Assembly (NCBI GenBank): GCA_902524115.1
Contig: CABZCA010000004.1
Span: 1-64,000, forward strand
Source of the DNA: an uncultured Pelagibacteraceae bacterium
GTDB taxonomy: Bacteria; Pseudomonadota; Alphaproteobacteria; Pelagibacterales; Pelagibacteraceae
DNA length: 64,000 bases
Direction: 5' to 3'
Positions 39,999 to 58,879 of the stretch are shown here, in pieces. The translations under genes and the position numbers were made by a program. The notes below the pieces were generated by a model. The model ran no database searches, was not told the origin of the DNA, and was given only the letters and a program-made list of their open reading frames with translations. Numbering within the stretch: position 1 is the stretch's first letter; every line of letters begins with the position of its first letter.

Positions 39999-40796
39999 AT
40001 GTCATCAGATTTAAATATTCTGAAAATAGAAAATATCTCAAAATATTTTGGAGGACTTGCTGCTGTATCTAATTGTTCATTAACCATTAAAAGAGGAACA
40101 ATTACGGGAATTATTGGTCCAAATGGATCTGGAAAAACCACGCTATTTAATCTTATTGCAGGAAATTTAAAATCCTCAAAAGGAAAAGTTTTTTTTAATA
40201 ATGAAAACATAACAGATATACCATCTCATGAATTATTTTCAAAAGGTCTTCTAAGAACTTTTCAAATTGCACATGAATTCTCTAATCTTACCGTCTTAGA
40301 AAATTTAATGATGGTTCCAGGAAACCAAACAGGAGAAATACTGTTAAATGCATTTATAAAGCCTAAACTTATTAAAGAAGAAGAAGAACAAATCAGACTT
40401 AAAGCCTACGATGTAGTGGAATTTTTAAATTTAAAGCACTTAGCTAATGAAAGAGCAGGAAATCTATCAGGAGGTCAAAAAAAATTACTAGAATTAGGAA
40501 GAACGATGATGGTAGATGCCAAATTAGTTTTATTAGATGAGGTAGGAGCGGGTGTTAATAGAACACTATTAAAAGACCTGGGAACTGCAATTTTAAGACT
40601 TAATAAGGAAAAAAATTATACTTTTTGTATGATAGAACACGATATGGATTTCATTAGTAGGATGTGCGACCCAGTAATTGTAATGTCAGAGGGTGCAGTT
40701 CTATTTCAAGGAACCTCTGATGAGGTAAAAACAAATGAGCAAGTTATAGAAAGCTATCTTGGTAGAGGAAAAAAAATTAATGGGGAAAATAGCTGA
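39999..40796 (+). CDS. LivG-type ABC ATPase (second LIV system)
   Basis: GPNGSGKTTLFNLIAGN; LSGGQKKLLELGRTMM. Confidence 0.93.
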   Translation: MSSDLNILKIENISKYFGGLAAVSNCSLTIKRGTITGIIGPNGSGKTTLFNLIAGNLKSSKGKVFFNNENITDIPSHELFSKGLLRTFQIAHEFSNLTVLENLMMVPGNQTGEILLNAFIKPKLIKEEEEQIRLKAYDVVEFLNLKHLANERAGNLSGGQKKLLELGRTMMVDAKLVLLDEVGAGVNRTLLKDLGTAILRLNKEKNYTFCMIEHDMDFISRMCDPVIVMSEGAVLFQGTSDEVKTNEQVIESYLGRGKKINGENS

Positions 40797-41503
40797 TGGC
40801 ATTTTTTGAGGGAAATAAAATGACAGGTGGTTACGGTGATGGCCCAGATATTATCAATTCTTGTTCTATTAATGTCGACAAAGGTGAAATTGTTGCAATC
40901 CTTGGTCCCAATGGTGCTGGAAAATCTACTGCCATGAAAGCAATGTTAGGTTTGTTAAATTTGAAATCTGGAAGTGTAGTAATAGAAGATCAAGACATAT
41001 CCAATTTTTCCCCACAAGAGAGAGTTCAAAGAGGAATCTCTTTTGTGCCACAAACAAAAAATGTTTTTTCAGAATTGACAGTAAGAGAAAATCTTGAAAT
41101 AGGTGGATTTCTAAGAAAAGATGATATCGACATAGTCGTCAATCAAATATACGAATTATTTCCAATTTTAGCAGAAAAAAGAGATCAAGTTGTTGGACAA
41201 TTATCTGGTGGTCAAAGACAACAAGTAGCCTTAGGGAGAGCTTTAATGATACAGCCATCAGTTTTAATGCTAGATGAACCAACTGCTGGTGTTTCACCTA
41301 TTGTGATGGATGAATTGTTCGAACATATAGTCAAAGTTAAAAAAACTGGAGTAGCAATAATTATGGTAGAGCAGAATGCAAAACAAGCCCTTAGCATATC
41401 AGACCGTGGCTATGTTTTAGTAACTGGTGAAAATAAATTTGAAGGTTCTGGAAAGGAATTGTTAAATGATCCAGAGGTAAGAAGGTCATTTTTAGGAGCT
41501 TAA
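40796..41503 (+). CDS. LivF-type ABC ATPase
   Basis: GPNGAGKSTAMKAMLGLL; LSGGQRQQVALGRALM. Confidence 0.93.
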   Translation: MAFFEGNKMTGGYGDGPDIINSCSINVDKGEIVAILGPNGAGKSTAMKAMLGLLNLKSGSVVIEDQDISNFSPQERVQRGISFVPQTKNVFSELTVRENLEIGGFLRKDDIDIVVNQIYELFPILAEKRDQVVGQLSGGQRQQVALGRALMIQPSVLMLDEPTAGVSPIVMDELFEHIVKVKKTGVAIIMVEQNAKQALSISDRGYVLVTGENKFEGSGKELLNDPEVRRSFLGA

Positions 41504-41505
41504 TA

Positions 41506-42516
41506 ATGGATTTTATCAATGCAATTATTGTATTATTAAATTACACAATATTACCTGCCTTAACCTATGGGTCTCAATTAGCTTTGGGGGCAATATTTGT
41601 TACCCTTATTTATGGAATTTTGAGATTTGCTAATTTTGCAACAGGAGACATGATGTCTTTTGGCACTATGTTTGCAGTTTTATTTACATATTATTTGCAA
41701 TCAAAAGGAATAAGTTTTGGTTTTTTGCCAACAGCTTTACTTACTATACCTTTTGCCGTTGCAATGATGATATTCTATATGCTCATCATAGATAAAACAG
41801 TTTTTAGTTATTATAGAACAAATAAAAGTCCCCCAGTGCAATTAGCAATGGTTAGTATTGGTGTAATGTTTGTAACCCAAGCAATTATTAGAATAATTAT
41901 TGGTCCTACTGACAGAAGATTTATGGATGGGGAAAAATTTATCTTAAAAGCGTCAGAATTTAAAGATATGACAGGACTAGCTGAAGGGTTAACAATCAAA
42001 TCAACACAAATCATTACTATTGTAGTAACTATTATATTAGTTGCGATTTTATTTTGGTTTTTAAATAAAACAAAAACAGGAACAAGTATGAGAGCTTATT
42101 CAGATAACGAGGATTTAGCATTGCTCTCTGGAATAGATCCAAAAAAAGTAGTTCTTATAACTTGGATAATTGCAGGAATTTTAGCTACTATCGGAGGCGT
42201 ATTATATGGCTTAGATAAAAGCTACAGACCTTTTGTTTATTTTAATAATATGCTTCCTATATTTGCTGCAGCTATAGCTGGAGGTATTGGTAATCCTTAT
42301 GGTGCTTTTCTTGGTGGGTATTTAATTGCATTCGCAGAAATATTCCTCACTTATGCATATAAAAGATTTTTCATTTATATTTTACCAGAACAACTGGAAC
42401 CAAACTCTTTGATGCAACTTTTATCAACAGATTACAAGTTTGCAATATCATTCTCAATTTTGGTCATTGTTTTGGTATTTAGACCATCGGGAATTTTTGA
42501 AGGAAAGAAAATATGA
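41506..42516 (+). CDS. LivH-type ABC permease
   Basis: YGSQLALGAIFVTLIYGILRFANFATGDMMSFG. Confidence 0.92.
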   Translation: MDFINAIIVLLNYTILPALTYGSQLALGAIFVTLIYGILRFANFATGDMMSFGTMFAVLFTYYLQSKGISFGFLPTALLTIPFAVAMMIFYMLIIDKTVFSYYRTNKSPPVQLAMVSIGVMFVTQAIIRIIIGPTDRRFMDGEKFILKASEFKDMTGLAEGLTIKSTQIITIVVTIILVAILFWFLNKTKTGTSMRAYSDNEDLALLSGIDPKKVVLITWIIAGILATIGGVLYGLDKSYRPFVYFNNMLPIFAAAIAGGIGNPYGAFLGGYLIAFAEIFLTYAYKRFFIYILPEQLEPNSLMQLLSTDYKFAISFSILVIVLVFRPSGIFEGKKI

Positions 42517-43883
42517 AGAATTACTTAAATATCATAATTGCTTACTCAATTATGTTAGGGCTAATAATTTTAGTAGGTATTTTTCAATCTTGGTCTATTG
42601 CTTTAACGATTTTTAATTATTGTATGATTTCAGCTGTAATGACTATGGGCGCAAATATTCAATGGGGATACGCAGGTCTTATTAACTTTGGGATAATGGG
42701 CTACACAGCTTTAGGAGGGTTGGCAGTAGTACTTGTATCTGTTGCTCCAGTGTCTGAAGCATGGAGTGTTGGAGGAGTAAATATGATAATGAGTCTTCTG
42801 CTTATAGTTCTAATGATATTTTCGATAAGATATGTTCTCAAAAACATAGATAAATCAAAGAAAAGAAACTACTTAGTTGCAGGAATAATAATAGTTGGAC
42901 TTTTTCTTATCAAAATGATTTCAGGTCCAGCAATAGAATTAATAGAGGCTGTTGAGCCAGCTAAAACTGGTTTTTTAGGTGGATTAGGTATGCCAGTTTT
43001 ATTCTCCTGGATTGTTGGTGGTTTTTTTGCAGCTGGTTTAGCATTTATAGTTGGAAAAGTTGCTCTAGGTTTAAGAGCAGATTATCTAGCCATAGCAACT
43101 TTATTAATAGCAGAAATAGTTGTTTCAATTATTAAACATGAGGATTGGTTAGCGAGGGGTGTAAAAAATGTTATAGGATTAAAGAGACCTGCTCCATATG
43201 AAATAGATTTACAAACATCCTTATGGTTTATAGAACTAGTTGAAAAATTTCACACTACAAAATTATCATTAACCAACTCACTTTCAGAAAGACAAGACCT
43301 TTTAAACCAATTGGTGATAGACGCGTCTTCAATTTATGTAAAACTTTGTTTTGCTGGGTTATTTTTACTAGTAGTTATTATTATATTGTTAGTTACACAA
43401 AAAGCACTTTATTCACCTTGGGGAAGAATGATGAGAGCTATAAGAGACAATGAAGAGGCGGCAAGTGCAATGGGTAAGAATGTTGTTAAACAGCATTTAT
43501 TTATATTTATCTTAGGTTCAGCCATTGTTGGAATAGCTGGAGCAATGATGGTAACAAATGATGGTTTATTTACTCCAGGAAGCTACAGGCCGATGAGATA
43601 TACCTTTGTTATCTGGGTTATGGTTATTGTGGGTGGAACAGGTAATAACTTTGGAGCAATTCTTGGTGGGTTTGTAGTTTGGTTTTTATGGGTAGAGGCT
43701 GCACCAATTGCATTATTTTTTATAAATTTATTTACTGCACATCTTCCAGAAACAAATGAGATAAAAATTCATTTAATAAATAGTGCACCATATTTTAGAT
43801 TTTTATTAGTTGGAATAGGTCTTCTTTTAATAATGAGATTTAGACCTCAGGGTATAATTCCTGAAAAGATTATTAAACAATAA
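42513..43883 (+). CDS. LivM-type ABC permease (long form)
   Basis: LRADYLAIATLLIAEI; MRAIRDNEEAASAMGKN. Confidence 0.9.
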   Translation: MKNYLNIIIAYSIMLGLIILVGIFQSWSIALTIFNYCMISAVMTMGANIQWGYAGLINFGIMGYTALGGLAVVLVSVAPVSEAWSVGGVNMIMSLLLIVLMIFSIRYVLKNIDKSKKRNYLVAGIIIVGLFLIKMISGPAIELIEAVEPAKTGFLGGLGMPVLFSWIVGGFFAAGLAFIVGKVALGLRADYLAIATLLIAEIVVSIIKHEDWLARGVKNVIGLKRPAPYEIDLQTSLWFIELVEKFHTTKLSLTNSLSERQDLLNQLVIDASSIYVKLCFAGLFLLVVIIILLVTQKALYSPWGRMMRAIRDNEEAASAMGKNVVKQHLFIFILGSAIVGIAGAMMVTNDGLFTPGSYRPMRYTFVIWVMVIVGGTGNNFGAILGGFVVWFLWVEAAPIALFFINLFTAHLPETNEIKIHLINSAPYFRFLLVGIGLLLIMRFRPQGIIPEKIIKQ

Positions 43884-44547: not shown

Positions 44548-45738
44548 TTATCTTTGTTTTTTGTCTTTGAATTTTCCACCTTTAATTTCTTTTTCAATAA
44601 AGGCACCTGATGCTTCTCCAACATCAGTAAATTCAACACTAGATGCACCTTCGTAGTTAACTGCTTTACCGCTAGCAAGTAAATCTAATGCTTTTTTTAA
44701 TTCTCCTGGATATATTTTTTCTCCTGGAGCATTTGCAACTGACATTACATTTGCTTGAACAGTAGCTCGATCAGCTTTACCACCTGCTTGCATAGCTAAA
44801 ACTATTAATGCTGCTGCATCGTAAGACTCTGAAGTATAAGGTCCAGATGAATCAATTCCTGCTCCACCAGCTACACCCTTAAATATTGTAGCACCTTTAC
44901 CCATTGATCCTGGCAAAGATCCAAATGATTTGTTTAGATCATTTCCGAATCTGTCAGTTAAAGAGTCACCGATCATTCCATCAGATAAAACAAATACGTC
45001 AAACGCACCTGAGTCTAATGAACCATCAATGATACTTCCACCAGCTTGGTCTAAGTAACCTAACACAGCTAAAGCATCGCCGCCTGCAGCTGCCAATGTT
45101 GCAACTTCAGCACCGTAGTCTCCTTTACCTTCTTCATGAGCTGTAACAACTGTTACGTTTATTCCATGAGCTTTAACAGCTGCAACATATACATCTGCTA
45201 AACCTTTACCGTAGTCGTTGTTAGTGTGTGTAACTGCAATACTTTTAACTTTTCTATCTTTAGTAATATCTGCTAATACTTGACCACCTCTTGCGTCAGA
45301 TGGAGCAGTTCTAAAGAAATATCCATTATCATTAAGATCAGTTAATCCTGGAGAAGTAGCTGATGGTGAAATCATAACTACACCATTTGGAACAGCAACG
45401 TTAGTTGCAATAGCTCCGGTTACACCAGAACAATCAGCACCCATAATTGCTACTACACCGCCAGATATTAAACCTTCTGCAGCAGCTGTTGCAGCAGCTG
45501 AGTCAACACAAGTTGAATCTGCCCTCTCAACAGAAATTTTCTTTCCTCCAAGTAATGAACCTGAATCTGAAGCCTCTTTAAATGCAAGCTCTGCAGATGC
45601 AGCCATTGCTGGAGTTAGGGATTCAATAGGACCTGTAAATCCTAAAATAATTCCCATTTTAATGCCATGTCCATCTGAATATGCTTTAGTTGCAAAACAA
45701 GTAACAAATACAAACATCGCTAATACTAGTTTTTTCAT
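44548..45738 (-). CDS. LivK-type ABC substrate-binding protein
   Basis: Signal peptide; IKMGIILGFTGPIESLTPAMAASAELAFKEA; VMISPSATSPGLTDLNDNGYFFRTAPSDA. Confidence 0.93.
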   Translation of the reverse strand: MKKLVLAMFVFVTCFATKAYSDGHGIKMGIILGFTGPIESLTPAMAASAELAFKEASDSGSLLGGKKISVERADSTCVDSAAATAAAEGLISGGVVAIMGADCSGVTGAIATNVAVPNGVVMISPSATSPGLTDLNDNGYFFRTAPSDARGGQVLADITKDRKVKSIAVTHTNNDYGKGLADVYVAAVKAHGINVTVVTAHEEGKGDYGAEVATLAAAGGDALAVLGYLDQAGGSIIDGSLDSGAFDVFVLSDGMIGDSLTDRFGNDLNKSFGSLPGSMGKGATIFKGVAGGAGIDSSGPYTSESYDAAALIVLAMQAGGKADRATVQANVMSVANAPGEKIYPGELKKALDLLASGKAVNYEGASSVEFTDVGEASGAFIEKEIKGGKFKDKKQR

Positions 45739-45811: not shown

Positions 45812-46669
45812 TTATCTCATTTTTTGAGCAAAAAACACTGAAGTAATGACAATTATTCCTCCAATTACTGTTACTAGAGATGGAATCTCACCAAAAATAA
45901 AAAAAGTAAGGATTAAACCAAATACAGGGAATAAGGCGTAGAATGGCAATACCATATCAAGAGGATAAAATTTATAAAGATAGAACATCATTAAATGTCC
46001 AAGCAAAGAAATAATTGCTCCAGCGTATAAAACTGTGAACCAACTTCCTAAACTTATATTTTTTATTGTTTGAAATGTATTTCCCTCAAATATTGCAGAC
46101 AATATTATTAAAATTATAAATCCAGTAAAGCTCATTATAGTATTAGTAAATTTAACATCTAATTCTTTTAAATATCTCGAAAATACTTGGGATAGTCCAT
46201 AAAAAAAAGCCATACAACAAATAAGAAGTGACCCTATTATTTCCTCTATTACTTTTGGGTCAAATGCAAGTATGACAATACCAAAAAAAGATATCATAAT
46301 TAATATCCATTTTTTATAACTTATTTTTTCATTTAAAAATATTGAGCTTAATATAATCCCAAAGGGAATTGAAAGTTGAGCCCCTATTGTAATTGGTGCA
46401 AGTATACTAGATGCATTTATAGATAAATATAAAAACATATTCACTGCAACACCAAAACATAATGAAAACCCAATCAAAGGAATAATATATTTTTTATCTA
46501 TACTTTGAATTTTAAAAAATGGAATTAAACAAATAAAAACAATAGCCATTCTTAATGAACCAAAAAGAATTGGTGGAATAGTGTCGTTCAATCCAAGTTT
46601 ACCAGTTGGATATGCACTTCCTAATAAAAATACAACAAATAAAATAAGTAAAGTATGTTTTGCAGACAA
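45812..46669 (-). CDS. EamA/DMT-family transporter
   Basis: Ten TM, EamA-like duplication; GSAYPTGKLGL. Confidence 0.88.
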   Translation of the reverse strand: MSAKHTLLILFVVFLLGSAYPTGKLGLNDTIPPILFGSLRMAIVFICLIPFFKIQSIDKKYIIPLIGFSLCFGVAVNMFLYLSINASSILAPITIGAQLSIPFGIILSSIFLNEKISYKKWILIMISFFGIVILAFDPKVIEEIIGSLLICCMAFFYGLSQVFSRYLKELDVKFTNTIMSFTGFIILIILSAIFEGNTFQTIKNISLGSWFTVLYAGAIISLLGHLMMFYLYKFYPLDMVLPFYALFPVFGLILTFFIFGEIPSLVTVIGGIIVITSVFFAQKMR

Positions 46670-46672
46670 AAA

Positions 46673-48154
46673 TTATCTTATAGAGAAAGGATCTAAAGTT
46701 GGTTCATCAGATGTGTAATACCAAGTTGTCTTAACTCTAGTATAATCCTTTATTGAGTCCATTCCCGCTTCCTTTCCATATCCACTATCTTTAATTCCAC
46801 CAAAAGGTGCTGAAGGAGAAATCAATCGATAAGTATTTACAAACGTTATACCTGCTCTTATTGCATTAGAAACTCTTAGACCTCTAGAGAAGTCACTAGT
46901 ATAAACTCCAGAAGATAATCCATATTGATTATCGTTCATTTTCTCTATTACCTCATTTTCTGTATCAAATTTCATAACTGATAAAACTGGTCCAAAAAGC
47001 TCATTTTCTGCGGTTGGAAGATTGTGATTATCACATTCAATTATTGTGGGAGGAAAGTAGTATCCCTCATTTGAAAATGGATGCCTTTCACCCCCACATT
47101 TTATTTTCCCCCCCTGTTCAGTGGTTTTTTTTATGTTTTTTTCAATAATTTCTAACTGTTTATAATTACTCAAAGGTCCCATTTCTGTGTCTGGATCCAT
47201 GGGAGCACCAATTTTTATTTTTTCAGCTCTTTTTGTGAGTTTATCAAGGAACTCATCGTAAATTCCTTTTTGAAGATATAGCCTTGAACCAGCAATACAA
47301 CTCTGTCCGCTAGCTCCAAATATTCCTGCAGTAATTCCATTAACAGCATTTTCTTGATGAGCATCATCAAATACAGCAACAGGACTTTTTCCTCCAAGTT
47401 CTAAGCTTACTTCTGATAAATTTTCTGCAGAATTTCTAATAATATGTCTTGCAGTTTCGGGCCCTCCTGTAAAAGCAACTTTTTCAACTAAATTATGTGT
47501 AGTTAAAGCTTTTCCACACGGATCTCCAAAACCTGTAATAACATTTACTACCCCTTTAGGAATACCAGTCTCCTCTATCAATTTTGCAAATTCAAACATT
47601 ACTGCTGGTGCAAGTTCAGAGGATTTAATAACCACAGTATTTCCCATTGCTAAAGCAGGTGCAAGTTTTGTTGCTGTTAAAAACATTTGAGAATTCCATG
47701 GAACAATCGCAGCAATAACACCAATAGGTATTCTTGAAGTTATGGCTTGAATATTTGGTTTATCTATTGGCAGAACTGTGCCTTCGACCTTGTCTGCCAT
47801 ACCTGCATAATAATCATAATACTCAGCAATATAATTTGCTTGTTTATTTGTTTCTCTATAAAGTTTTCCAGTATCTATAGTTTCAATTTTTCCAAGTAAT
47901 TCTGCGTTATCTCTAAGCTTATTTCCAATAGCTCTTAAAAACTTTGCTCTTTCACGCGGCAGTATTTTAGGCCAATCTCCTTCAAACGCTTTTTGAGCTG
48001 CTTGAACTGCTTTATCTACATCAGAAGCACTTGCCTCAGGAACAACTGCCCATGGTTTATTATCCTCTGGATTTAAAGTTTCAAAAGTTTTTTTAGTATC
48101 AGAGTCAACCCATTCTCCTCCTATAAACATTTTATATTTTTTTAATTCAGGCAT
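46673..48154 (-). CDS. NAD(P)-dependent aldehyde dehydrogenase
   Basis: VPWNSQMFLTATKLAPALAMGN, ELGGKSP, GIFGASGQSCIAGSRL catalytic Cys. Confidence 0.95.
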   Translation of the reverse strand: MPELKKYKMFIGGEWVDSDTKKTFETLNPEDNKPWAVVPEASASDVDKAVQAAQKAFEGDWPKILPRERAKFLRAIGNKLRDNAELLGKIETIDTGKLYRETNKQANYIAEYYDYYAGMADKVEGTVLPIDKPNIQAITSRIPIGVIAAIVPWNSQMFLTATKLAPALAMGNTVVIKSSELAPAVMFEFAKLIEETGIPKGVVNVITGFGDPCGKALTTHNLVEKVAFTGGPETARHIIRNSAENLSEVSLELGGKSPVAVFDDAHQENAVNGITAGIFGASGQSCIAGSRLYLQKGIYDEFLDKLTKRAEKIKIGAPMDPDTEMGPLSNYKQLEIIEKNIKKTTEQGGKIKCGGERHPFSNEGYYFPPTIIECDNHNLPTAENELFGPVLSVMKFDTENEVIEKMNDNQYGLSSGVYTSDFSRGLRVSNAIRAGITFVNTYRLISPSAPFGGIKDSGYGKEAGMDSIKDYTRVKTTWYYTSDEPTLDPFSIR

Positions 48155-48920
48155 TTTGTATATGATATTTAATTGCTTTATTTACATCATATGAGCATTC
48201 AATACTACATAGATGTTTGCCTACAGATATTATTTTTACTTCAGAGTTTTTAATTTTTTTACTCAGATTATCGGACATTTTTGGAGTTGAGCCTACATCA
48301 CCCTCTCCAGTCATCACAAGTGTTTTGACATTAATATTTTCAAATTTTTCGTTATCTTTGTGATTTACAAACAACGAGTAAACTTTAATAAAGTTGTCCA
48401 TATTATTATTGTTAAGAATTGAGAAAATTTTATCTGAAATTAGAGGATTTTTATCAATAAAATCCTTATTAAACCATCTATTGAGTGCGTCTTTTGTCAG
48501 TTTTTTATCTTTTTTTGTCTGTTCAAACCTTTCATTTACTATCTTCTGTTCATTATCAGATCTATTAAATATTGAGCACAACAATGTTAGGGATTTCAAT
48601 CTATCACTAAATCTCGTTGCAAAGTTTCTTGCAATCAAAGAGCCTATTGAAAATCCAATAAGGTGAATTTTACTAAATTTTAATTCATCAATAAGATCAA
48701 TAATTTGATCTGAAAAATCATCAAAACTTATTTTTTTTAAATTTAAAGGTGTTCTACCGTGTCCAAGGATATCATAAATTAAAACTGTATTATCAAATTC
48801 ATTAATTTGTGGATCCCATATATTATGATCAAGACCCACACCATGAATAAATACTATTGGAATTCCTTCTTTTTGATTTAGTTTATAGAATGTTCCTTTA
48901 GAGTCTGTTGCATTGATCAT
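48147..48920 (-). CDS. Alpha/beta hydrolase
   Basis: FIHGVGLDHNIWDPQ, DILGHGRT, LIGFSIGSLIA nucleophile elbow, VGKHL catalytic His region. Confidence 0.9.
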   Translation of the reverse strand: MINATDSKGTFYKLNQKEGIPIVFIHGVGLDHNIWDPQINEFDNTVLIYDILGHGRTPLNLKKISFDDFSDQIIDLIDELKFSKIHLIGFSIGSLIARNFATRFSDRLKSLTLLCSIFNRSDNEQKIVNERFEQTKKDKKLTKDALNRWFNKDFIDKNPLISDKIFSILNNNNMDNFIKVYSLFVNHKDNEKFENINVKTLVMTGEGDVGSTPKMSDNLSKKIKNSEVKIISVGKHLCSIECSYDVNKAIKYHIQNA

Positions 48921-48922
48921 TA

Positions 48923-49510
48923 TTATTTTGGTTCAATACCCATCTCCTTCATATCTTGGTACCTATCACCTGTTCTTGCATGAGCTCTACCTGTCGAAGC
49001 GCCACCAATTGCAATAACAATTTCATCATCAAATGGAGCATCATGAATTGTAAACTCATGTGTAAGATAATATGGTCTTAAACCAGAGTCTGTTTTGTGC
49101 ATCATTGGAATAGATATTTTTGATCCAGCCGGACCTCTTGTATTCGTAAAACTTAAATAAGAAGTTCCTCCAACAGCATCTCTGAACTTATTACCAAATC
49201 TTAGTGTATGAATAAATGCTGATGCATGTTCTATTTCTCCATTCAGTCCAACCACACCTGCTTTTCCATACGCTAATATTTTATCAGGAGAGCCTATTTC
49301 TTTTATAAGTTCAGGAACCAATAAATCTCCAAGTTTAGGAGCTAGATCTAAAATAATGGGTTTTAAGTCTTCCACAAAACCTTTTCCATCCCAAGGATTT
49401 TTAAAAACTGCAGCAACAGAAACCATCAAAACAGGTTCTTCAGCTTCTTTTCCACCTTCAATAAAAGTCTTATCTACAAATTTAGTGAACTTACGTAATT
49501 CTAATTTCAT
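48923..49510 (-). CDS. 'Amino acid synthesis' family protein (DUF1185/PF06684)
   Basis: AAVFKNPWDGKGFVEDL, GEIEHASAFIHTLRFGNKFRDAVGGTSYL, IGGASTGRAHARTGDRYQDM. Confidence 0.82.
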   Translation of the reverse strand: MKLELRKFTKFVDKTFIEGGKEAEEPVLMVSVAAVFKNPWDGKGFVEDLKPIILDLAPKLGDLLVPELIKEIGSPDKILAYGKAGVVGLNGEIEHASAFIHTLRFGNKFRDAVGGTSYLSFTNTRGPAGSKISIPMMHKTDSGLRPYYLTHEFTIHDAPFDDEIVIAIGGASTGRAHARTGDRYQDMKEMGIEPK

Positions 49511-51207
49511 TTTCTTATTCTATGTGTAAAGCTATCTCTCCTAAAACTGTATAACGCTTTTGGATCTACATCAACATCTATAACAACTGGTTTATTTACT
49601 TTTAATGCACTTTTTACTGCCTCATTAACTTCTGATAATTTTTTAACTTTAATTCCTTTAGCACCGTATAGTTTCGCAACTTCATCAAAAGGAGGACTTT
49701 GAATATCAGCTCCTAAATATCTTTCACCATAGAAATCTTTTTGATAAGCTTTTTCTGCTCCCCAACTCTTATTATTCATTACAATTGTAATTGTGTTAAT
49801 GCCATGCTCTACAGCAGTACTTAATTCAGAAATAGTCATTCCAAATCCGCCATCACCCATTAAACTAACGACTGTTTTATTAGGTTTTGCAACCTTTATT
49901 CCCAAACCACATGCAAATGAGAAGCCTACTAAACCAAAATCAAGAGGTGTGAAAAGGGCAGGAGGATTGTAATATTCTAAAGCATCTGTTGCTTGAAGAC
50001 AAAGTGTTCCAGCATCAAGTGTTATTGCAGTATTTTTTGGTAGTACTTTTCTTAATTCTCTGAATAGACCATTTGGTTGGATTGGAAAATTTTTTGACTT
50101 TATATTATCCCTATCTTTAAGAAATTTTGATCTATCTAATAAAAAGCTATTTGTCCATTCTTCGTAATTGAAAATTTTCTTCTGTTTTCTTAACTCTGCT
50201 AAAATTTGATCTGTCACAAGAGCAGCATCGCCATGAATACCTACATTAACCGGAAAGTATCTTCCTATCATTGTTTTTTCTAACTCAATTTGTACAATTT
50301 TCGCATTTTTATTTATATTGTCATACGAATAGAAAGTAGAATTGAAACCAAGTCTTGTACCAATTGCAATAATTAGCTCTGCTTCTTTCACTAATCTTGA
50401 TGCAACAATATTTCCTCTAGGTCCCATTTGTCCAGCATTTAACTTATGACTGAAGGGAATTGCATCTCCATGTCCTGCTGCAGTTACAATTGGAATATTT
50501 AAAAATTCAGCAAGCTTTGTTACAGACTTAAATTTTGAATTATATTTTATTCCTCCTCCAGCAACAATTACTGTTTTTTTTGAGTTGAGAATAAGTTTTA
50601 TAGTTCTATCAATTGAATTCTTTTTACTTTTTAAGTCACTTTCAGCTTTATAAGATTTTTTATTTTCATTAATTTTAAACTTTGAAGTATCAGAAAGAAC
50701 ATTTCTTGGAAGGTTTATACAAACTGGTCCTCTGCGTGGTGACATTGCAAGATTAAAAGCATCTCTAAAGGCTGTTGGTATATGACTTGCCTTTTTTACT
50801 GTCCATGTTTTTTTTGTTATAGGATCAAAAAGTGATTGTTGATCAAGTCCTTGAAATGCATCCTCCATCTTATCTTTAGTAGAATATAAACCTGCAATAG
50901 ATACTACAGGAGAAAATGCTGCTTTTGCTTGCGCTATGCCCGTAACGAGATTAGTTGCTCCTGGACCGTTTTGACCGGCAATTATTACACCTGGTTGATT
51001 AGAAGCTCTTGCATATCCATCCGCCATATGCGTTCCAGTTCTTTCGTCTCTTACACCTATAAATTTAATTTTTTTTTCATGATATAACGCATCAAACATT
51101 TCCATGGTTGCTGAACCAATTAGACCAAAGACGTGTTTAACTTTTTCTTTTTTTAATGATTTCACTGCCGCTTGACCACCGGTCAAGTTATTCTTGGTCT
51201 TAATCAC
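49507..51207 (-). CDS. Thiamine-diphosphate-dependent enzyme (acetolactate synthase-like, substrate unknown)
   Basis: HVFGLIGSATMEMFDAL, VRDERTGTHMADGYARA (catalytic Glu region), GDGGFGMTISELSTAVEHGINTITIVMNN ThDP motif. Confidence 0.92.
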   Translation of the reverse strand: MIKTKNNLTGGQAAVKSLKKEKVKHVFGLIGSATMEMFDALYHEKKIKFIGVRDERTGTHMADGYARASNQPGVIIAGQNGPGATNLVTGIAQAKAAFSPVVSIAGLYSTKDKMEDAFQGLDQQSLFDPITKKTWTVKKASHIPTAFRDAFNLAMSPRRGPVCINLPRNVLSDTSKFKINENKKSYKAESDLKSKKNSIDRTIKLILNSKKTVIVAGGGIKYNSKFKSVTKLAEFLNIPIVTAAGHGDAIPFSHKLNAGQMGPRGNIVASRLVKEAELIIAIGTRLGFNSTFYSYDNINKNAKIVQIELEKTMIGRYFPVNVGIHGDAALVTDQILAELRKQKKIFNYEEWTNSFLLDRSKFLKDRDNIKSKNFPIQPNGLFRELRKVLPKNTAITLDAGTLCLQATDALEYYNPPALFTPLDFGLVGFSFACGLGIKVAKPNKTVVSLMGDGGFGMTISELSTAVEHGINTITIVMNNKSWGAEKAYQKDFYGERYLGADIQSPPFDEVAKLYGAKGIKVKKLSEVNEAVKSALKVNKPVVIDVDVDPKALYSFRRDSFTHRIRK

Positions 51208-52373
51208 GATACTTTTTTAACTTCAGTATCTAGATCATCTTTAAAGTTAGGCATTACTTTTTCAGTGAATAGTTTAATACTTTTCATACAATCTTCATGT
51301 TTCACGCCTGGAAAGTTAGACCAGACTTGAAGATTTTGAAGATTAAGTTCTGATTGTAGTTCTTTAATCTTATCTGTTACATATTCAGGAGTACCAAACA
51401 ACATATTTCTCTTATGTAAAAACTCATAATTAAGAAGATCTAATTTACCCTTTGTTTCTGGAAGCTCTTCACCAGGATCCATGTGATTACCAAGACCTCT
51501 CCAATGACAAACCCATTTCATATAATTTACCATATGTTGGCCTGCTTTTTCTTTGGCCTCCTCCATAGTGTCAGCGACAAACATATCTCTGACGAGAGTA
51601 ACGCCTTCACCTAAAGGGACATTTTTTTTAGTAACTTCAGATCTTTTATTTTTGTAAGCTTCAAATCTTATTTTCAATGCTTTAACTGTAGGTATCCACA
51701 TAATTACATTTATATTATTTTCTGCTGCCCACTCTATAGATCTTATACCATCAACAACTTGATGTATTGGAGGGTGTGGATTTTGATAAGGCTTTGGAAG
51801 AACACTAATTTTTTTCATAGTGCTATCTTCCATATTCATAAATTCTTCACTTGGAGGGCTCATGTCATGCTGCCAAACATAATCTGGTGATGGGTAAGTA
51901 TAAAATTCTCCATCATGATTAAAAAATTTCTCTGACCATGCTTTTTTCAAAATTTCTAATGTTTCAGCAAATAATCTAAAATTTTTTGCCTGATCTTTTA
52001 AATCTGCTTCTTTGTTTAAATTAATTGCCTCTCTCCCATAAACTCCTCTTGCAACACCAACTTCTACTCTTCCCTTTGAAAGTTGATCAAGTGTAGCAAT
52101 ATCTTCTGCTAATCTAATTGGGTTATGAAAAGTTATTACATTTGCTGCTTGTCCTATTCTTATATTTTTTGTTCTTGCTGCAGCATCTGCTCCTAGCATT
52201 AAGGGATTAGTACATGACTCCATGCCCTCATGGTTAAAATGATGTTCAGTAAACCAAATTGAATTCCAATAGTTTTGATCACAATATTCAGTGATCTGTT
52301 TAGTTTCATCTAATAATTTATGATATGGTTTGTGTGTCCAATTTGTAGTATTACAAAAATATCCAAACTTCAT
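51204..52373 (-). CDS. Luciferase-like (LLM class) flavin-dependent monooxygenase
   Basis: WFTEHHFNHEGMESCTNPLML, RLAEDIATLDQLSKGRVEVGVARG; AGGAGG RBS. Confidence 0.92.
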   Translation of the reverse strand: MKFGYFCNTTNWTHKPYHKLLDETKQITEYCDQNYWNSIWFTEHHFNHEGMESCTNPLMLGADAAARTKNIRIGQAANVITFHNPIRLAEDIATLDQLSKGRVEVGVARGVYGREAINLNKEADLKDQAKNFRLFAETLEILKKAWSEKFFNHDGEFYTYPSPDYVWQHDMSPPSEEFMNMEDSTMKKISVLPKPYQNPHPPIHQVVDGIRSIEWAAENNINVIMWIPTVKALKIRFEAYKNKRSEVTKKNVPLGEGVTLVRDMFVADTMEEAKEKAGQHMVNYMKWVCHWRGLGNHMDPGEELPETKGKLDLLNYEFLHKRNMLFGTPEYVTDKIKELQSELNLQNLQVWSNFPGVKHEDCMKSIKLFTEKVMPNFKDDLDTEVKKVS

Positions 52374-52474: not shown

Positions 52475-53446
52475 TTACCTTTGATATTCAACGAATTTTT
52501 TAAGGGATTTATTAAGAAATTTATCGTATCTGAGACCGCTATTAGTTAGTTTTTCCTTATTTAAAAATGAAAGATTCATTTTAAAGTCATATGAGGGTTC
52601 AAAAAAGAAAGGAACTGAAAGCCTTTTTTGCTTGTTCCATAATACCCTATGATTAGTTGCTTTAAACCTTCCCTTACTTAAATATTCAAGCGCTCTTCCA
52701 GTATTTATAACTAAAGCATTTTTATTAAAGGGAACATCGTACCATTTTTTTGTTTTACGGTTTTGTACTTGTAAACCACCCTTTTTATTTTGGTAAAGTA
52801 CTGTGAAAATACCACTATCTACATGTGTTTCACATCCAAGAGCAACCCCATCTTGTTTGGAAATTTCAACAGGCTTTGTTTGATTAGGGTAATAATTAAA
52901 ACGTAATGTACTGAGAGTTTTTAATCTTGAAAATGCTTTTTTTGATATATCAGTATCCTTATTATAGATTTTAATAATACTTTTAAAAAGAATTTCACTT
53001 AAATTAAATATATCATCATAATAATCAGATAATTTAGAAATATTATTTGCGGTAAATGATTGCTTAATATTTAAATATTCTATGTACTGATTTTTTACTC
53101 TTTTTGAATATTTCTCAGTTACTTTTAAATCCCCCAAATCTAGTCCTTCTTTACCATTTACGTCATTAGGAAAGTAACCTCTATAAACATTTTTATTTTT
53201 TTTATTCCATTTTTTTGGAGCTAATTTAAGTTTATTTTTTATATTTAGTTTGAAAAAATTTTCTCCAACTTTGCAAATTTTATTTATATTTTTTAATTTT
53301 ATACCATGACCTGTAATTTGAAAAAAACCAACATCTAAACAAGCTTTCTGAATTTCTTTAACTATTTTAAAGGTAGGTTTTGTATCAAAACCTTTTTCAA
53401 GAATAGAAGAAATATTTATTGTTGGAATATAGTTTTTTTTTATCAT
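52475..53446 (-). CDS. Isopenicillin N synthase-family Fe(II)/2OG oxygenase
   Basis: GFFQITGHGI, ETHVDSGIFTVLYQNKKGGLQVQN (HxD), ALEYLSKGRFKATNHRV. Confidence 0.92.
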   Translation of the reverse strand: MIKKNYIPTINISSILEKGFDTKPTFKIVKEIQKACLDVGFFQITGHGIKLKNINKICKVGENFFKLNIKNKLKLAPKKWNKKNKNVYRGYFPNDVNGKEGLDLGDLKVTEKYSKRVKNQYIEYLNIKQSFTANNISKLSDYYDDIFNLSEILFKSIIKIYNKDTDISKKAFSRLKTLSTLRFNYYPNQTKPVEISKQDGVALGCETHVDSGIFTVLYQNKKGGLQVQNRKTKKWYDVPFNKNALVINTGRALEYLSKGRFKATNHRVLWNKQKRLSVPFFFEPSYDFKMNLSFLNKEKLTNSGLRYDKFLNKSLKKFVEYQR

Positions 53447-54390
53447 CTATTAGGTGTATCTGATGCAATCATTTGGCCTCGGATTTTTTCTCTAAAATAA
53501 ATATACACACCTGCACCAATAATTATTGCGGCTCCAAGAAAAGTTCTAGGTACTGGTATAGTTTCAAATAATATGTAACCAGCTATCATTGCAAAAACTA
53601 TGTACGAATATTCAAACAGAGACACCACAGACGGAGAAGCAATACTATATGCTGTAAAAACACAAAAAAAAGATATTGATGCAACAATACCCATTACAAA
53701 AACGTAAGGCCAAGAAACAGCTGGATTTACAAACCATTCTCTAAAAATAAACTGCATTGTAGGATCAGAAAAATTATTAAACTTTCCATCACCACTTATT
53801 AAAAATATTATAACACTCGCAATTACTGCAAAAATATAAAGTAAAGTTAACTGAGTATAAATATTATCTTTTTCAGATGTATATTTTGTAATTGTCATAG
53901 AGCATGCATAACAAAGTGAGCATGCAACTGGTGCCAATTTAAAAAAGTTAAAGTCCTCTAAAGTTGGATTTAGCACAACTAAAACACCAATAAATCCTAC
54001 GGTTATTGCGCTCCATCTTCTAATTCCAATTTGTTCTTTTAAAAATACTTTAGCAAATATTGACATGAAAAAAGGACATGAAAAGAATAATGCGCTGACC
54101 ATAGCTAAAGACATAAATGTAAGTGAAATGTAAAAGAAACTAAAACCAAAGAAAAAACAAATTACTCTTAATAAAGTTAAAAAAGGATAATGAGTCTTTA
54201 ATGTAAATTTTTTCTTAGTTATTAAGAATATAGATATAAGAACTGTAGCTTGAACAATAGTTCTACCAAGATATAACTCAAACAAAGCAATTTCTTCAAA
54301 TATATATTTTATAAGAGAGTCTTGAATTGAAAAAAAAGCCATCCCTATCATAATAAATAGGATGCCTTTAGTATTATTATTTGCTTCCAT
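53443..54390 (-). CDS. EamA/DMT-family transporter
   Basis: Ten TM; MIGMAFFSIQDSLIKYI. Confidence 0.9.
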   Translation of the reverse strand: MEANNNTKGILFIMIGMAFFSIQDSLIKYIFEEIALFELYLGRTIVQATVLISIFLITKKKFTLKTHYPFLTLLRVICFFFGFSFFYISLTFMSLAMVSALFFSCPFFMSIFAKVFLKEQIGIRRWSAITVGFIGVLVVLNPTLEDFNFFKLAPVACSLCYACSMTITKYTSEKDNIYTQLTLLYIFAVIASVIIFLISGDGKFNNFSDPTMQFIFREWFVNPAVSWPYVFVMGIVASISFFCVFTAYSIASPSVVSLFEYSYIVFAMIAGYILFETIPVPRTFLGAAIIIGAGVYIYFREKIRGQMIASDTPNR

Positions 54391-54393
54391 ATG

Positions 54394-55974
54394 TTAATTC
54401 AAAATAAAGTCAGCAGCTCTCTCACCTATCATTAATGTTGGTGCATTTAGATTTCCACTTGTAATTTCTGGCATCACAGATGCATCGGCTACCCTTATAT
54501 TCTGAAGACCATGAATTTTTAATTTTTCATCTACCACCGCCATATCATCTATACCCATCTTTAAAGTACATGATGGGTGATATGCTGTTTCTGCTTTTGA
54601 TCTTACATATTCTTCAATTTCCTCATCTGAATTTGCATTATCACCTGGCCCAATTTCTTTACCAGCAAAAGGTTTCATAGAGTTTTGACATAAAATTTTT
54701 CTTGCTACTCGAACACATTTTATTGTTTCTTTAAGATCGTAATTATCCTCTAAATAATTAAATTGTATTTTTGGATAATCATAAGGGTTTGAACTTTTCA
54801 AAGTAATTTCCCCTCTACTTTTAGGTTGGTTTAAACTTGCATGTAATTGGTATCCGTGTCTATCAGGATCTACTAAACCATGGTCTATTACAAATGCTGG
54901 GAAAAAATGAAATTGTATATTTGGATATTTTTTATCTGAAGATGATTTACAAAATCCACCAGCTTCTAAAAACGAGGTAGAGCAGGGCCCACTTTTGTTT
55001 AAGAACCACTGGATACCCACTTTCACCATATTAAATTTATTTACATATGAATATAATGTATCTGGAGTTTTACATTCTTGTTGAATATAGGTTTCTAAAT
55101 GATCTTGTAAATTTTTTCCAACTCCTTTTGAATCATGAATAATTTCAATTCCTTTTTCTTTAAGATGCTTGCTTGGACCAACACCTGATAACATTAATAA
55201 TTGTGGAGAATTAATTGATCCACCACTTAAAATAATTTCTTTATTTGCGTAAATAGTCTTCGTTTCATTTTTTATTTTAACTTGAATTCCAATAGCTTTT
55301 TTGCCATCAAAAATAATCTTTTCTACAAATGACTCAGTAAATACTTTTAAATTTTCCCTGCTTTTAGCTGGTTTTAAATAGTATTTTGAAGCACTTGCTC
55401 TCTGTCCTTTATGAATAGTAACATCGTACATTCCAAAGCCTTCTTGGTCTTCTCCATTCATATCACTATTTATTTTATGTCCTGCCTCTTTCGCCGAGTC
55501 CAAAAAAGCCTTAAAAAGGGGATTTTTGTTATTTGATTGATTTACAGGCAATATACCTTTTCCACCTCTATAATTATTTTCTCCACCTGACCATGTCTCA
55601 ATTTTTTTAAAAAAAGGTAGAACATTTTCGTAAGACCAATTTTTTAACCCAAATGAAGCCCATCTCTCATAATCATTTTTATTTCCTCTGACATAAACCA
55701 TTCCATTATGCGCGGAACAACCACCAATCATCTTTCCCCTAGGACAAAATAATTTTCTATTGTTTAAGTGTGGCTCAGGTTCAGAATAATATTTATAATT
55801 ATATTTTGGGTCATGCATTGCATAAAGTATTGCAAGGGGCATGTTTACTTTCCATATATCACTATCTTTACCAGCTTCAAAAATTGCAACTTTATTTTTA
55901 CTTTGTTCAGTTAGTCTATTAGCGAGAACACATCCTGCTGTACCTGCTCCAATTATTAAATAATCAAATTTCAA
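54394..55974 (-). CDS. GMC oxidoreductase (choline-dehydrogenase-like)
   Basis: DYLIIGAGTAGCVLANRLTE, GKMIGGCSAHNGMVYVRGN, GGSINSPQLLMLSGVGP, TAYHPSCTLKMG. Confidence 0.93.
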   Translation of the reverse strand: MKFDYLIIGAGTAGCVLANRLTEQSKNKVAIFEAGKDSDIWKVNMPLAILYAMHDPKYNYKYYSEPEPHLNNRKLFCPRGKMIGGCSAHNGMVYVRGNKNDYERWASFGLKNWSYENVLPFFKKIETWSGGENNYRGGKGILPVNQSNNKNPLFKAFLDSAKEAGHKINSDMNGEDQEGFGMYDVTIHKGQRASASKYYLKPAKSRENLKVFTESFVEKIIFDGKKAIGIQVKIKNETKTIYANKEIILSGGSINSPQLLMLSGVGPSKHLKEKGIEIIHDSKGVGKNLQDHLETYIQQECKTPDTLYSYVNKFNMVKVGIQWFLNKSGPCSTSFLEAGGFCKSSSDKKYPNIQFHFFPAFVIDHGLVDPDRHGYQLHASLNQPKSRGEITLKSSNPYDYPKIQFNYLEDNYDLKETIKCVRVARKILCQNSMKPFAGKEIGPGDNANSDEEIEEYVRSKAETAYHPSCTLKMGIDDMAVVDEKLKIHGLQNIRVADASVMPEITSGNLNAPTLMIGERAADFILN

Positions 55975-55979
55975 GGTAT

Positions 55980-56813
55980 TTATTGTGGGTGGTCACCTTC
56001 AATAGCAATTCTATCCATTACTCTTTCATATCCTAATCCTCTACCTGGATAAAAATCTGCAATTGCAAAGTGAATAACACTTCTATTATCCCATATACAG
56101 ACTGTATTTTCAGTCCAGCTAAACCTACAGGTTAATTCAAGTCGTGCTTGGTGTTCAAATATTTTTTTTAAAATTTCGTCACTTTCATCTTGTTCAAGTC
56201 CAATTATTTTTTTTGTGTATGTCCAATTGACAAATAGAATTTTTTTTCCAGTCTCAGGATGTGTTCTTACTATTGGATGTTCATTAGAATATTCATCAAA
56301 ATTTCTTTTTTCATTTCCCTCCATTTTTTTATATTTTTCAATAAAAAATTCTGCGCCAAGAGAACTATGGATTGCTTTTTTATCTTTTATCCTTTCTTTT
56401 ATATCTTTATCTAATGTTTCCCATGCAAGCTCCATATTTGCAAAGCATGTATCACCACCAACAGGAGGAATTTTAATTGATTTTAATATTACTGCTTTCG
56501 TTGGTTTTTCATTGTAACTAACATCACTATGCCAATTCTCACCCCATTGGTTTTTTTCATCTTCTGCTTTAATTATTCTTACTATTTCGGGATGTTTACT
56601 TAATCCTTTTACATATGCATGTGTTTCTAATGGTCCAAATTTTTCAGCTAAAGCTATATGTTGTTCAGCATTAATTTTTTGGTCTCTAAAGAAAATAACT
56701 TTGTGTTCTAATAATAAATTATTAATTTCCTTGATGTTTTGATCAGATGTATCTTTAAGATCTATCCCTGTTATTTCTGCACCTAGTGCTCCTGACAAAA
56801 GTTTTATTTCCAT
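55980..56813 (-). CDS. TauD/TfdA-family Fe(II)/2OG dioxygenase
   Basis: GAEITGIDL, FFRDQKI, ENWHSDVSY (HxD), WDNRSVIHFA. Confidence 0.93.
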   Translation of the reverse strand: MEIKLLSGALGAEITGIDLKDTSDQNIKEINNLLLEHKVIFFRDQKINAEQHIALAEKFGPLETHAYVKGLSKHPEIVRIIKAEDEKNQWGENWHSDVSYNEKPTKAVILKSIKIPPVGGDTCFANMELAWETLDKDIKERIKDKKAIHSSLGAEFFIEKYKKMEGNEKRNFDEYSNEHPIVRTHPETGKKILFVNWTYTKKIIGLEQDESDEILKKIFEHQARLELTCRFSWTENTVCIWDNRSVIHFAIADFYPGRGLGYERVMDRIAIEGDHPQ

Positions 56814-56816
56814 AAC

Positions 56817-57284
56817 TTATTTTTTTAGCTTACCAGAAAACACTAAATTTTCTGAGTTAAAAGAAACCTTATTTTTATTTATAAAGTCATCCATTATTTG
56901 GATTTTATCTTGTTCAAATTCTGTGACCTTTCTTTTATCCAGATCAATATAAAGCGACAAGCTTTCAATAGTTGCAGCAAGTTTATTTGACTTCTTTTCG
57001 TACATTTCGCATTTTAAATGTAATCTTTTTTTATCATGATCAAAGAAGGTACAATAAACATCTACTTCATCATTTTCTTTCACTTCATTGTCATAGGTAG
57101 TTCTAGTATCTACAACCATAGTACTTCTTTTATTAATTTGTGCATTTGAACCACCCATATGAAACTTATTAAGCATTGTTTCCCATGCTTGATCAAAAAT
57201 TAGAACATAGTATGCCATATTCATATGTTCATTGTAGTCTGTCCATTCCTTGATTACTTTTCTAGTGGCAAGATGATATGACAT
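56817..57284 (-). CDS. Hot-dog thioesterase, candidate betainyl-CoA thioesterase (CdhB-like)
   Basis: EWTDYNEHMNMAYYVLIFDQAWETML hot-dog signature; in a cluster with carnitine dehydrogenase and BKACE. Confidence 0.72.
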   Translation of the reverse strand: MSYHLATRKVIKEWTDYNEHMNMAYYVLIFDQAWETMLNKFHMGGSNAQINKRSTMVVDTRTTYDNEVKENDEVDVYCTFFDHDKKRLHLKCEMYEKKSNKLAATIESLSLYIDLDKRKVTEFEQDKIQIMDDFINKNKVSFNSENLVFSGKLKK

Positions 57285-57292
57285 AATTTAGT

Positions 57293-58153
57293 TTAAACTT
57301 TGTTTATTTTATCTGCTATCAATATTTTTCTTTTCATTTCTCGAAGGACAGGCTTTTCTATGAGTTTACCGTCGATGACTACTAGACCTGTATTTGAATT
57401 ATTAAATTCTTCTAAAATTTTTTTAGCCTTGATAATTTCATCTTGAGGTGGTGTAAATACTTCATTTAAAATTCTAATTTGTTTTGGATGAATGGAACCC
57501 TTTCCAGTAAAGCCTAAGTTTCTTACTTGTTCAGCCTCTTTCCTCATTCCCTCCATATTCTCTAAATCTAAATAAGGTACATCTATTACATCTACACCAA
57601 CACTTGCACCTGCATGAACTAATTTAGATCTCGCATAGACAAGATTTTCCCATTTATTTTCAACTCTTAGCTCAGCTGCCATATCAACTCCACCAAAATA
57701 TAGAGCAACTATTCTTTTACTGGCATGAGCAATATTATAAATATTTTCTAAAGCCTCATTTGTTTCCATTATTACATGAAGATCCGTATCTAAATTACAG
57801 TCTGTTAAAAGATCATCTATAAACGTTATTTCATCTGGAGTTTTAACCTTCGGTAACATGATAGCCTTTAGATTTATTTTGCTAGATATAAAAGCTTCTA
57901 AATCTAAAAGACCAAACTTTGTTCTTTGATTATTTAATCTGACAACTAACTCTACATCATTTTTTACTTCGAGAGTTTTTAGAGCCTCTATAGTATTTTT
58001 TCTAGCTTCTGCTTTATCATTGATTGCTATCCCATCCTCTAATTCAATACAAACCATGTCTGCACCTGATGCAATTGCTTTAGGAAACATTTCTGGATGA
58101 AGTCCAGGTGTAAAAATAAAACTTCGTCTTACTTTTAATTTGTTCAAGTCCAT
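57293..58153 (-). CDS. CitE/HpcH-HpaI family lyase (malyl-CoA lyase/citrate lyase beta-like)
   Basis: RRSFIFTPGLHPEMFPKA, DMVCIELEDGIA, GFTGKGSIHPKQI. Confidence 0.92.
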   Translation of the reverse strand: MDLNKLKVRRSFIFTPGLHPEMFPKAIASGADMVCIELEDGIAINDKAEARKNTIEALKTLEVKNDVELVVRLNNQRTKFGLLDLEAFISSKINLKAIMLPKVKTPDEITFIDDLLTDCNLDTDLHVIMETNEALENIYNIAHASKRIVALYFGGVDMAAELRVENKWENLVYARSKLVHAGASVGVDVIDVPYLDLENMEGMRKEAEQVRNLGFTGKGSIHPKQIRILNEVFTPPQDEIIKAKKILEEFNNSNTGLVVIDGKLIEKPVLREMKRKILIADKINKV

Positions 58154-58879
58154 TTAATTTTTGTAATCAGGTTCTTCTTTATCTAAAATTAATCTTATTT
58201 GAGATAGGAATAGATTTGCAAAATCAGTTGGAAAGTTTGCATGTTCTTCTGCGGTTTTCTCTGCAACTTCATGGCTGACCACATTAAGTTCTTGGTTTGT
58301 TGAAAGAGCTGTAAGATATGTTTGTGCCGCTCTTTCAAAATAATAAAGAGAATTAAAACCTTCAGCCACAGTTTCTCCTGTTGTTAAAATTCCATGATTT
58401 GCGAGTAACATGTGCTGTTTATTCCCAAGAGAATTCGCCATTTTATTGGATTCGTCCTCAAGTCCTAAACCTCCAAATTCATTGTATGTAGATACTCTAT
58501 TATAAAACATCATCGTATTTTGATCGATTGGTTTCAAGACTGGGTCTTTTAGCGTAGAAAGAGCAGTTGCATATTTAGAATGGACATGAAAAATACATCT
58601 TGCGTGTGGAGCTTTTTCATGAATTGCACCATGGATATATAAAGCTGTCGGATCAATAACGTCTGGCTTATTCTTCAACTCATCTTTATTTTCTTTAGTT
58701 ACTAAGATCAAATCACTAGCCTTCATTCTACTAAAATGAATACCTGCTTTATTGCAGTAAAAATCAGATGTACCAGGTATGCATGCACTAAAATGGTTTG
58801 CAACTCCCTCATGCATATTAAGTCTAGCCGTCCATCTAAAAGTTGCAGCTAAATCCTTCTGTAATTCTGATATTTCCAT
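58154..58879 (-). CDS. Class II aldolase/adducin-family protein
   Basis: NHFSACIPGT, IHFSRM, CIFHVHSKYATALS, ANHGILTTGETVAEGFNSLYYFERAA. Confidence 0.93.
   Translation of the reverse strand: MEISELQKDLAATFRWTARLNMHEGVANHFSACIPGTSDFYCNKAGIHFSRMKASDLILVTKENKDELKNKPDVIDPTALYIHGAIHEKAPHARCIFHVHSKYATALSTLKDPVLKPIDQNTMMFYNRVSTYNEFGGLGLEDESNKMANSLGNKQHMLLANHGILTTGETVAEGFNSLYYFERAAQTYLTALSTNQELNVVSHEVAEKTAEEHANFPTDFANLFLSQIRLILDKEEPDYKN

Follow-up and report, generated by a model that had tools for sequence, protein, structure and literature searches.

Do the five minus-strand genes at positions 46673-52373 of the window (the whole stretch of 64 000 nucleotides analyzed here, part of a 1.1 Mb draft genome with relatives of 1.0-1.5 Mb) constitute a functional module, and if so, what kind of compound would it degrade? 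The size, AT richness and gene content of the genome indicate that it belongs to Pelagibacterales (SAR11). The initial annotation of this SAR11 locus described overlapping or abutting genes for a luciferase-like monooxygenase (LLM), a ThDP-dependent enzyme, a DUF1185 protein, an alpha/beta hydrolase and an aldehyde dehydrogenase (ALDH), with an EamA transporter next to them. The coordinates and overlaps are confirmed, and Pfam matches agree with all six family assignments (Table 1). The LLM and ThDP genes overlap by 4 bp, as do the ThDP and DUF1185 genes, and the hydrolase and ALDH genes by 8 bp, with gaps of 2 bp between the DUF1185 and hydrolase genes and 3 bp between the ALDH and EamA genes.

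Table 1. Genes of the module and neighboring transporter genes in the window
Feature	Position	Strand	Support
LLM monooxygenase, FMN-dependent luciferase-like, proposed ring-opening oxygenase	51204-52373	-	389 aa; PF00296 Bac_luciferase 9.5e-43
ThDP-dependent enzyme, acetolactate synthase / sulfoacetaldehyde acetyltransferase superfamily, accessory	49507-51207	-	566 aa, GTG start; three TPP Pfam domains
DUF1185 / PF06684 (AA_synth) protein, TgnF-like subfamily	48923-49510	-	195 aa; 1e-64
PcaD-like alpha/beta hydrolase, Ser91-Asp208-His236 triad	48147-48920	-	257 aa; Abhydrolase_1 3.4e-22
NAD(P)-dependent aldehyde dehydrogenase (semialdehyde dehydrogenase)	46673-48154	-	493 aa; Aldedh 8e-161
EamA/DMT transporter, optional neighbor	45812-46669	-	EamA 1.9e-25
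Liv-type ABC substrate-binding protein, possible uptake system	44548-45738	-	branched-chain-type SBP family
Liv-type ABC ATPases and permeases, possible uptake system	39999-43883	+	LivH/UrtB- and LivM-like families

Conservation and boundaries of the module

Gene overlap is an ordinary feature of streamlined genomes, and what goes beyond chance here is the synteny of the module rather than the overlaps between its genes. Of 197 genomes from the order, 64 have the LLM gene (49 of the same genus and 15 of a second family, the latter with 55-60% identity) and 62 the DUF1185 gene, and comparison of the two presence lists shows that 61 genomes have both. The exceptions are three genomes with the LLM only (G039, G041 and G051) and one with DUF1185 only (G027), and all four of these genes are located at contig ends. 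The ALDH, hydrolase, DUF1185 and LLM genes are contiguous and follow a constant order in each of the 19 SAR11 loci that are long enough to judge. The shared genomes and the syntenic loci support the initial view of a conserved, chemically coherent catabolic module, and the conservation in other genomes on which this view hinged is found.

Within the genus, protein identity to the window is 87-96% for DUF1185, 74-90% for ALDH, 72-96% for LLM, 77% for the ThDP enzyme and 45-69% for the hydrolase; for all module genes compared, dN is far below dS, with dS close to saturation. Recombination inside the module is suggested because the identities of different genes rank the relatives differently: at locus L034, LLM and DUF1185 are 96% and 87% identical to the window proteins, respectively, compared with 75% and 96% at L041. 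The ALDH of G006, a genome of the second family (L169, 2283-3758), is 69% identical to the window ALDH, against 60% for the ALDH of its own family, which points to exchange between the families.

The transporters do not define the module. EamA, which the initial annotation listed with the other genes, is not constant, being found at this position in some relatives only (beside the module in L040 and L041). In G004 and at the majority of the Pelagibacter module loci, the gene for the Liv-type substrate-binding protein adjoins the module, and the Liv-type ATPases and permeases stay near it in several relatives. The Liv transporter was nevertheless rejected as a module marker, the substrate-binding protein being encoded in 140 of the 197 genomes, module-free ones included. 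At 52475-58879, the window carries genes for a 2OG-Fe oxygenase, EamA, a choline-dehydrogenase-like GMC protein, TauD, a thioesterase, a CitE-like protein and a class II aldolase; this block looks like a separate unit because many relatives, though not all, have it beside the module.

An accessory ThDP gene

The ThDP gene was found in 39 of the 64 LLM-positive genomes, with at least three of the other 25 cut by contig ends, and none of its carriers among the 197 genomes is LLM-negative. Wherever the locus could be read, in two families, this gene lies between those for LLM and DUF1185, and several Pelagibacter lineages have a clean LLM/DUF1185 junction from which it is absent. In G006, about 120 bp separate the LLM and DUF1185 genes, and this spacer opens with ATGTCAAAAAAAATGACTGGTGGCGAG, which is the start of the ThDP gene in the neighbors of G006 (MSKKMTGGE); therefore, the ThDP gene was deleted there. 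In G119, the ThDP reading frame is broken by a single frameshift, which could instead be a sequencing error. The ThDP gene is thus an accessory one that was lost in some lineages, and the C-C chemistry that the initial annotation included in the module is dispensable; given the many LLM-positive genomes without the gene, the deletion scar and the frameshift, ThDP was rejected as a core pathway step.

Sulfoacetaldehyde acetyltransferase (Xsc) was rejected as the identity of the ThDP enzyme, with 386 bits for TIGR03457 against a cut-off of 676; the best NCBIfam match is PRK07525, but its 400 bits fall below the cut-off of 620, so that no equivalog assignment can be made. The plus strand of the window encodes another ThDP enzyme at 14309-16075, which has the full set of three TPP domains and is probably an acetolactate synthase.

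It is conceivable that LLM and the ThDP enzyme serve separate pathways, the latter being a sulfoacetaldehyde acetyltransferase-like enzyme of a sulfonate or oxo-acid route that is merely carried along. The patchy occurrence and apparent decay of the gene, together with an Xsc-like best family that stays under its cut-off, are compatible with this explanation; however, its restriction to LLM-positive genomes and its constant site between LLM and DUF1185 in two families are not readily accounted for, and we consider separate pathways unlikely.

A conserved gene set apparently joined by different oxygenases

The DUF1185 subfamily to which the window protein belongs is not confined to SAR11. It adjoins LLM, hydrolase and ALDH genes in 75 of the 80 genome loci listed; a flavin reductase is almost always present as well, and there is frequently another dehydrogenase that is SSADH-like. 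The LLM, hydrolase and ALDH neighborhood recurs without exception in another 14 loci, namely L063, L064 and 12 records of the plasmid collection. Plasmids of Rhizobium, Sinorhizobium, Leisingera, Thioclava, Agrobacterium, Acinetobacter, Klebsiella and others carry this subfamily. The record L081 (NZ_CP077849.1, Acinetobacter baumannii, 3.66 Mb) is labeled as a plasmid in PLSDB, probably wrongly because it is chromosome-sized. At one locus of a distant DUF1185 subfamily, the adjoining genes encode a 6-hydroxynicotinate reductase and a xanthine-dehydrogenase-type molybdopterin hydroxylase.

The SAR11 LLM retains E43-H44-H45 in all 16 aligned relatives, residues that correspond to the catalytic histidines of bacterial luciferase. 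Its AlphaFold2 model (pLDDT 89) is matched best in the PDB by luciferases, type II Baeyer-Villiger enzymes and RslO1, with identities of 18-23%; diketocamphane monooxygenase (20-21%) is among them. RutA was rejected as an assignment (20.3 bits against an equivalog cut-off of 498). The SAR11 LLMs are only 23-29% identical to those of the canonical tgn-like clusters, and in the LLM tree, the deep branching order of which is uncertain because some deep branches are long, they group with those of two non-SAR11 alphaproteobacteria (G405 and G420) and of loci without a neighboring DUF1185 gene, apart from both the canonical clade and the Agrobacterium-type clade. By identity and by clade, then, the module LLM is not an orthologue of TgnB-like LLMs. 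The association with DUF1185 requires at least four label changes on this tree, and the SAR11-type LLM appears to have become linked to DUF1185 independently of the canonical ones. In G405 and G420, it is accompanied by DUF1185, hydrolase and ALDH. In G405 (L063, 9245-12479), the same run of genes also encodes a flavin reductase and a glycine betaine monooxygenase-like Rieske oxygenase, which weakly hints at a methylated betaine as the substrate. The window encodes a second luciferase-like monooxygenase (60783-61817, plus strand; PF00296, 8.9e-46), which forms a very long branch away from the module LLM.

The cluster in the window encodes no TgnA-like flavin reductase. Neither this genome nor any of five complete Pelagibacter genomes that are LLM-positive has PF01613 (Flavin_Reduct). 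General FMN_red proteins (PF03358) occur in every genome tested, whether or not it carries the module, and neither search points to one particular candidate for the missing reductase.

The window DUF1185 protein belongs to PF06684 (profile score of 217.6 bits, cut-off of 27), has 2qtp and 3byq as PDB relatives, and is 53-61% identical to the LLM-linked, TgnF-like subfamily of the plasmid clusters and about 30-35% identical to the distant subfamily. Four conserved histidines have been described in this family, with His144 (BB2672 numbering) called strictly conserved (PMC2954203). The window protein keeps three of the four; the His144 position is occupied by Tyr or Phe in Pelagibacterales and by His in G405 and the plasmid clusters, and membership is unaffected because the family is defined by the profile. 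The hydrolase shares the catalytic triad, as well as R120, R131 and R148-W149-F150, with the hydrolases of canonical clusters, and its best PDB relative is 2xua, a 3-oxoadipate enol-lactonase. The ALDH is 48-52% identical to that of the GntR-type canonical clusters and 41-42% identical to the Agrobacterium type. It is the only ALDH of the module, so that the pair of semialdehyde dehydrogenases (one SSADH-like) typical of tgn is not found there; elsewhere in the genome there is an ALDH-like DNA match only.

The DUF1185 tree separates the same groups as the LLM tree, with the window protein among those of the LLM-linked clusters and apart from the distant subfamily. Because the LLM clades differ while the DUF1185 tree separates the same groups, DUF1185, hydrolase and ALDH appear to form a constant chassis that different LLMs have joined. 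DUF1185 is the most conserved part across the LLM types, which suggests a substrate-independent role. The initial annotation knew of no established reaction for DUF1185; indeed, none is proven, but TgnF from trigonelline degradation reportedly enhances the TgnE-dependent oxidation of succinate semialdehyde (cited in PMC7913881).

Proposed chemistry and relation to known systems

The reading that we prefer, with a probability of about 0.5, is that Pelagibacterales have here their own version of a ring-opening module that depends on flavin, is linked to DUF1185 and operates in the manner of the trigonelline (tgn) system. The compound imported, perhaps by the neighboring Liv-type ABC transporter, would be a small heterocycle with a carboxyl group, most likely a pyridinium betaine or an N-heterocycle. 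By analogy with its family and cluster, LLM would then cleave the ring with FMNH2 and O2, yielding an N-formyl (or ester/lactone) ene-acid semialdehyde; the FMNH2 would come from elsewhere in the cell because the cluster encodes no reductase. The semialdehyde would be oxidized by ALDH, with DUF1185 either aiding ALDH, as TgnF reportedly does for a semialdehyde dehydrogenase, or isomerizing a cyclic hydroxylactone to the open aldehyde. Next, the PcaD-like hydrolase could cleave the enamide or lactone to formate, an amine and a C4-C5 keto or semialdehyde acid, and in some lineages, the ThDP enzyme may carry out a dispensable C-C cleavage of the oxo-acid product.

A small N-containing metabolite, one of the two kinds originally proposed, is plausible as the substrate. 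The LLM is not an orthologue of TgnB by identity or tree, and therefore, transfer of the substrate from tgn is unsafe. Furthermore, HcdD, a DUF1185 protein homologous to TgnF of Acinetobacter baylyi, belongs to the 7-hydroxycoumarin operon (PMC7913881), so that the substrate need not contain nitrogen. An O-heterocycle or a carbocyclic ketone could be degraded if LLM were a type II Baeyer-Villiger monooxygenase, the hydrolase opened the lactone and ALDH oxidized the aldehyde. The HcdD context, the diketocamphane monooxygenase among the fold neighbors of LLM and the enol-lactonase closest to the hydrolase all fit such a route. However, that fold match involves only 20-21% identity, the closest DUF1185 subfamily is tied to a tgn-like gene set and the distant one to 6-hydroxynicotinate reductase, and we regard an oxygen ring or ketone as a possible but somewhat unlikely substrate.

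Another candidate is homarine (N-methylpicolinate), in which case the module may equal or overlap the recently published homarine pathway. Homarine amounts to as much as 3% of the particulate carbon in surface ocean samples, and TgnA/TgnB, which open the trigonelline ring, possibly exclude it on steric grounds (PMC8269262), so that an LLM unlike TgnB, such as that of SAR11, would be expected; opening of the ring with its 2-carboxyl could also give a 2-oxo acid usable by the ThDP enzyme. Nevertheless, the sequence gives no pointer to the substrate, the ThDP gene is dispensable and the published pathway uses the N-methylglutamate dehydrogenase Mgd (PMC13390433), and we consider this identification quite improbable. 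Somewhat less doubtful, but still rather unlikely, is the broader idea that SAR11 independently put together an undescribed pathway that opens the ring of homarine or of some other N-heterocycle abundant in the sea, with another LLM clade on the DUF1185 chassis, FMNH2 from a shared reductase, and the ThDP enzyme finishing the carbon skeleton in some lineages.

Whatever the substrate of the proposed tgn-like module, the operon is kept in roughly one in three of the genomes sampled from the order, with sizes near 1.3 Mb, and such retention in small genomes makes it likely that this substrate is a real ocean nutrient. DUF1185, annotated just as 'amino acid synthesis', gains a firm context as an accessory that accompanies the hydrolase and ALDH irrespective of the LLM recruited.

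Several known systems can be compared with the SAR11 module. Rut pyrimidine degradation likewise combines a ring-opening LLM (RutA) with an alpha/beta hydrolase (RutD), but the module LLM scores far below the RutA cut-off and Rut is not known to include DUF1185. The clusters of Agrobacterium pAt, Mesorhizobium and Thalassospira share DUF1185, LLM, hydrolase and ALDH with SAR11 but differ in having a third LLM subtype, a CMD (carboxymuconolactone decarboxylase)-like gene, another gene order and a flavin reductase. Those of Acinetobacter, Rhizobium, Sinorhizobium pSymA, Leisingera, Thioclava and Klebsiella are closer, with a tight order and 53-61%, 48-52% and 23-27% identity for DUF1185, ALDH and the hydrolase, respectively, and are unlike SAR11 in possessing a flavin reductase and another LLM clade and in lacking the ThDP gene. 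The gene content of these canonical clusters agrees with that of the tgn system as described in the literature, the comparison being with that description; a contig profile scan with an Acinetobacter-led DUF1185 alignment gave A. soli and two Acinetobacter sp., with A. baylyi not among the matches listed. According to Perchat and colleagues (in 2018), TgnB is reportedly an LLM and TgnA its reductase, and the route is said to lead through an N-formyl enamine diacid to succinate semialdehyde, formate, CO2 and methylamine. The tgn system of A. baylyi ADP1 (TgnA/TgnB, TgnC, TgnD, TgnE and TgnF) resembles the SAR11 module in that a single cluster contains an LLM, a hydrolase, a semialdehyde dehydrogenase and DUF1185 (TgnF). 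SAR11 differs in that its LLM is of another clade (about 25% identical to the presumed counterpart in Acinetobacter), the cluster lacks a flavin reductase and the module has a single ALDH, to which the ThDP enzyme and the Liv-type ABC transporter are added.

The initial annotation could not map this locus to a described pathway, which stands insofar as none of the systems compared matches it exactly and falls insofar as DUF1185, hydrolase, LLM and ALDH form a widespread cluster type with tgn-like content. What differs in SAR11 is the LLM clade, the cluster without a reductase and the ThDP gene. The SAR11 module belongs to a kind of catabolic cluster that is already known, as a variant in which the oxygenase has been exchanged and one further enzyme is present in some lineages.
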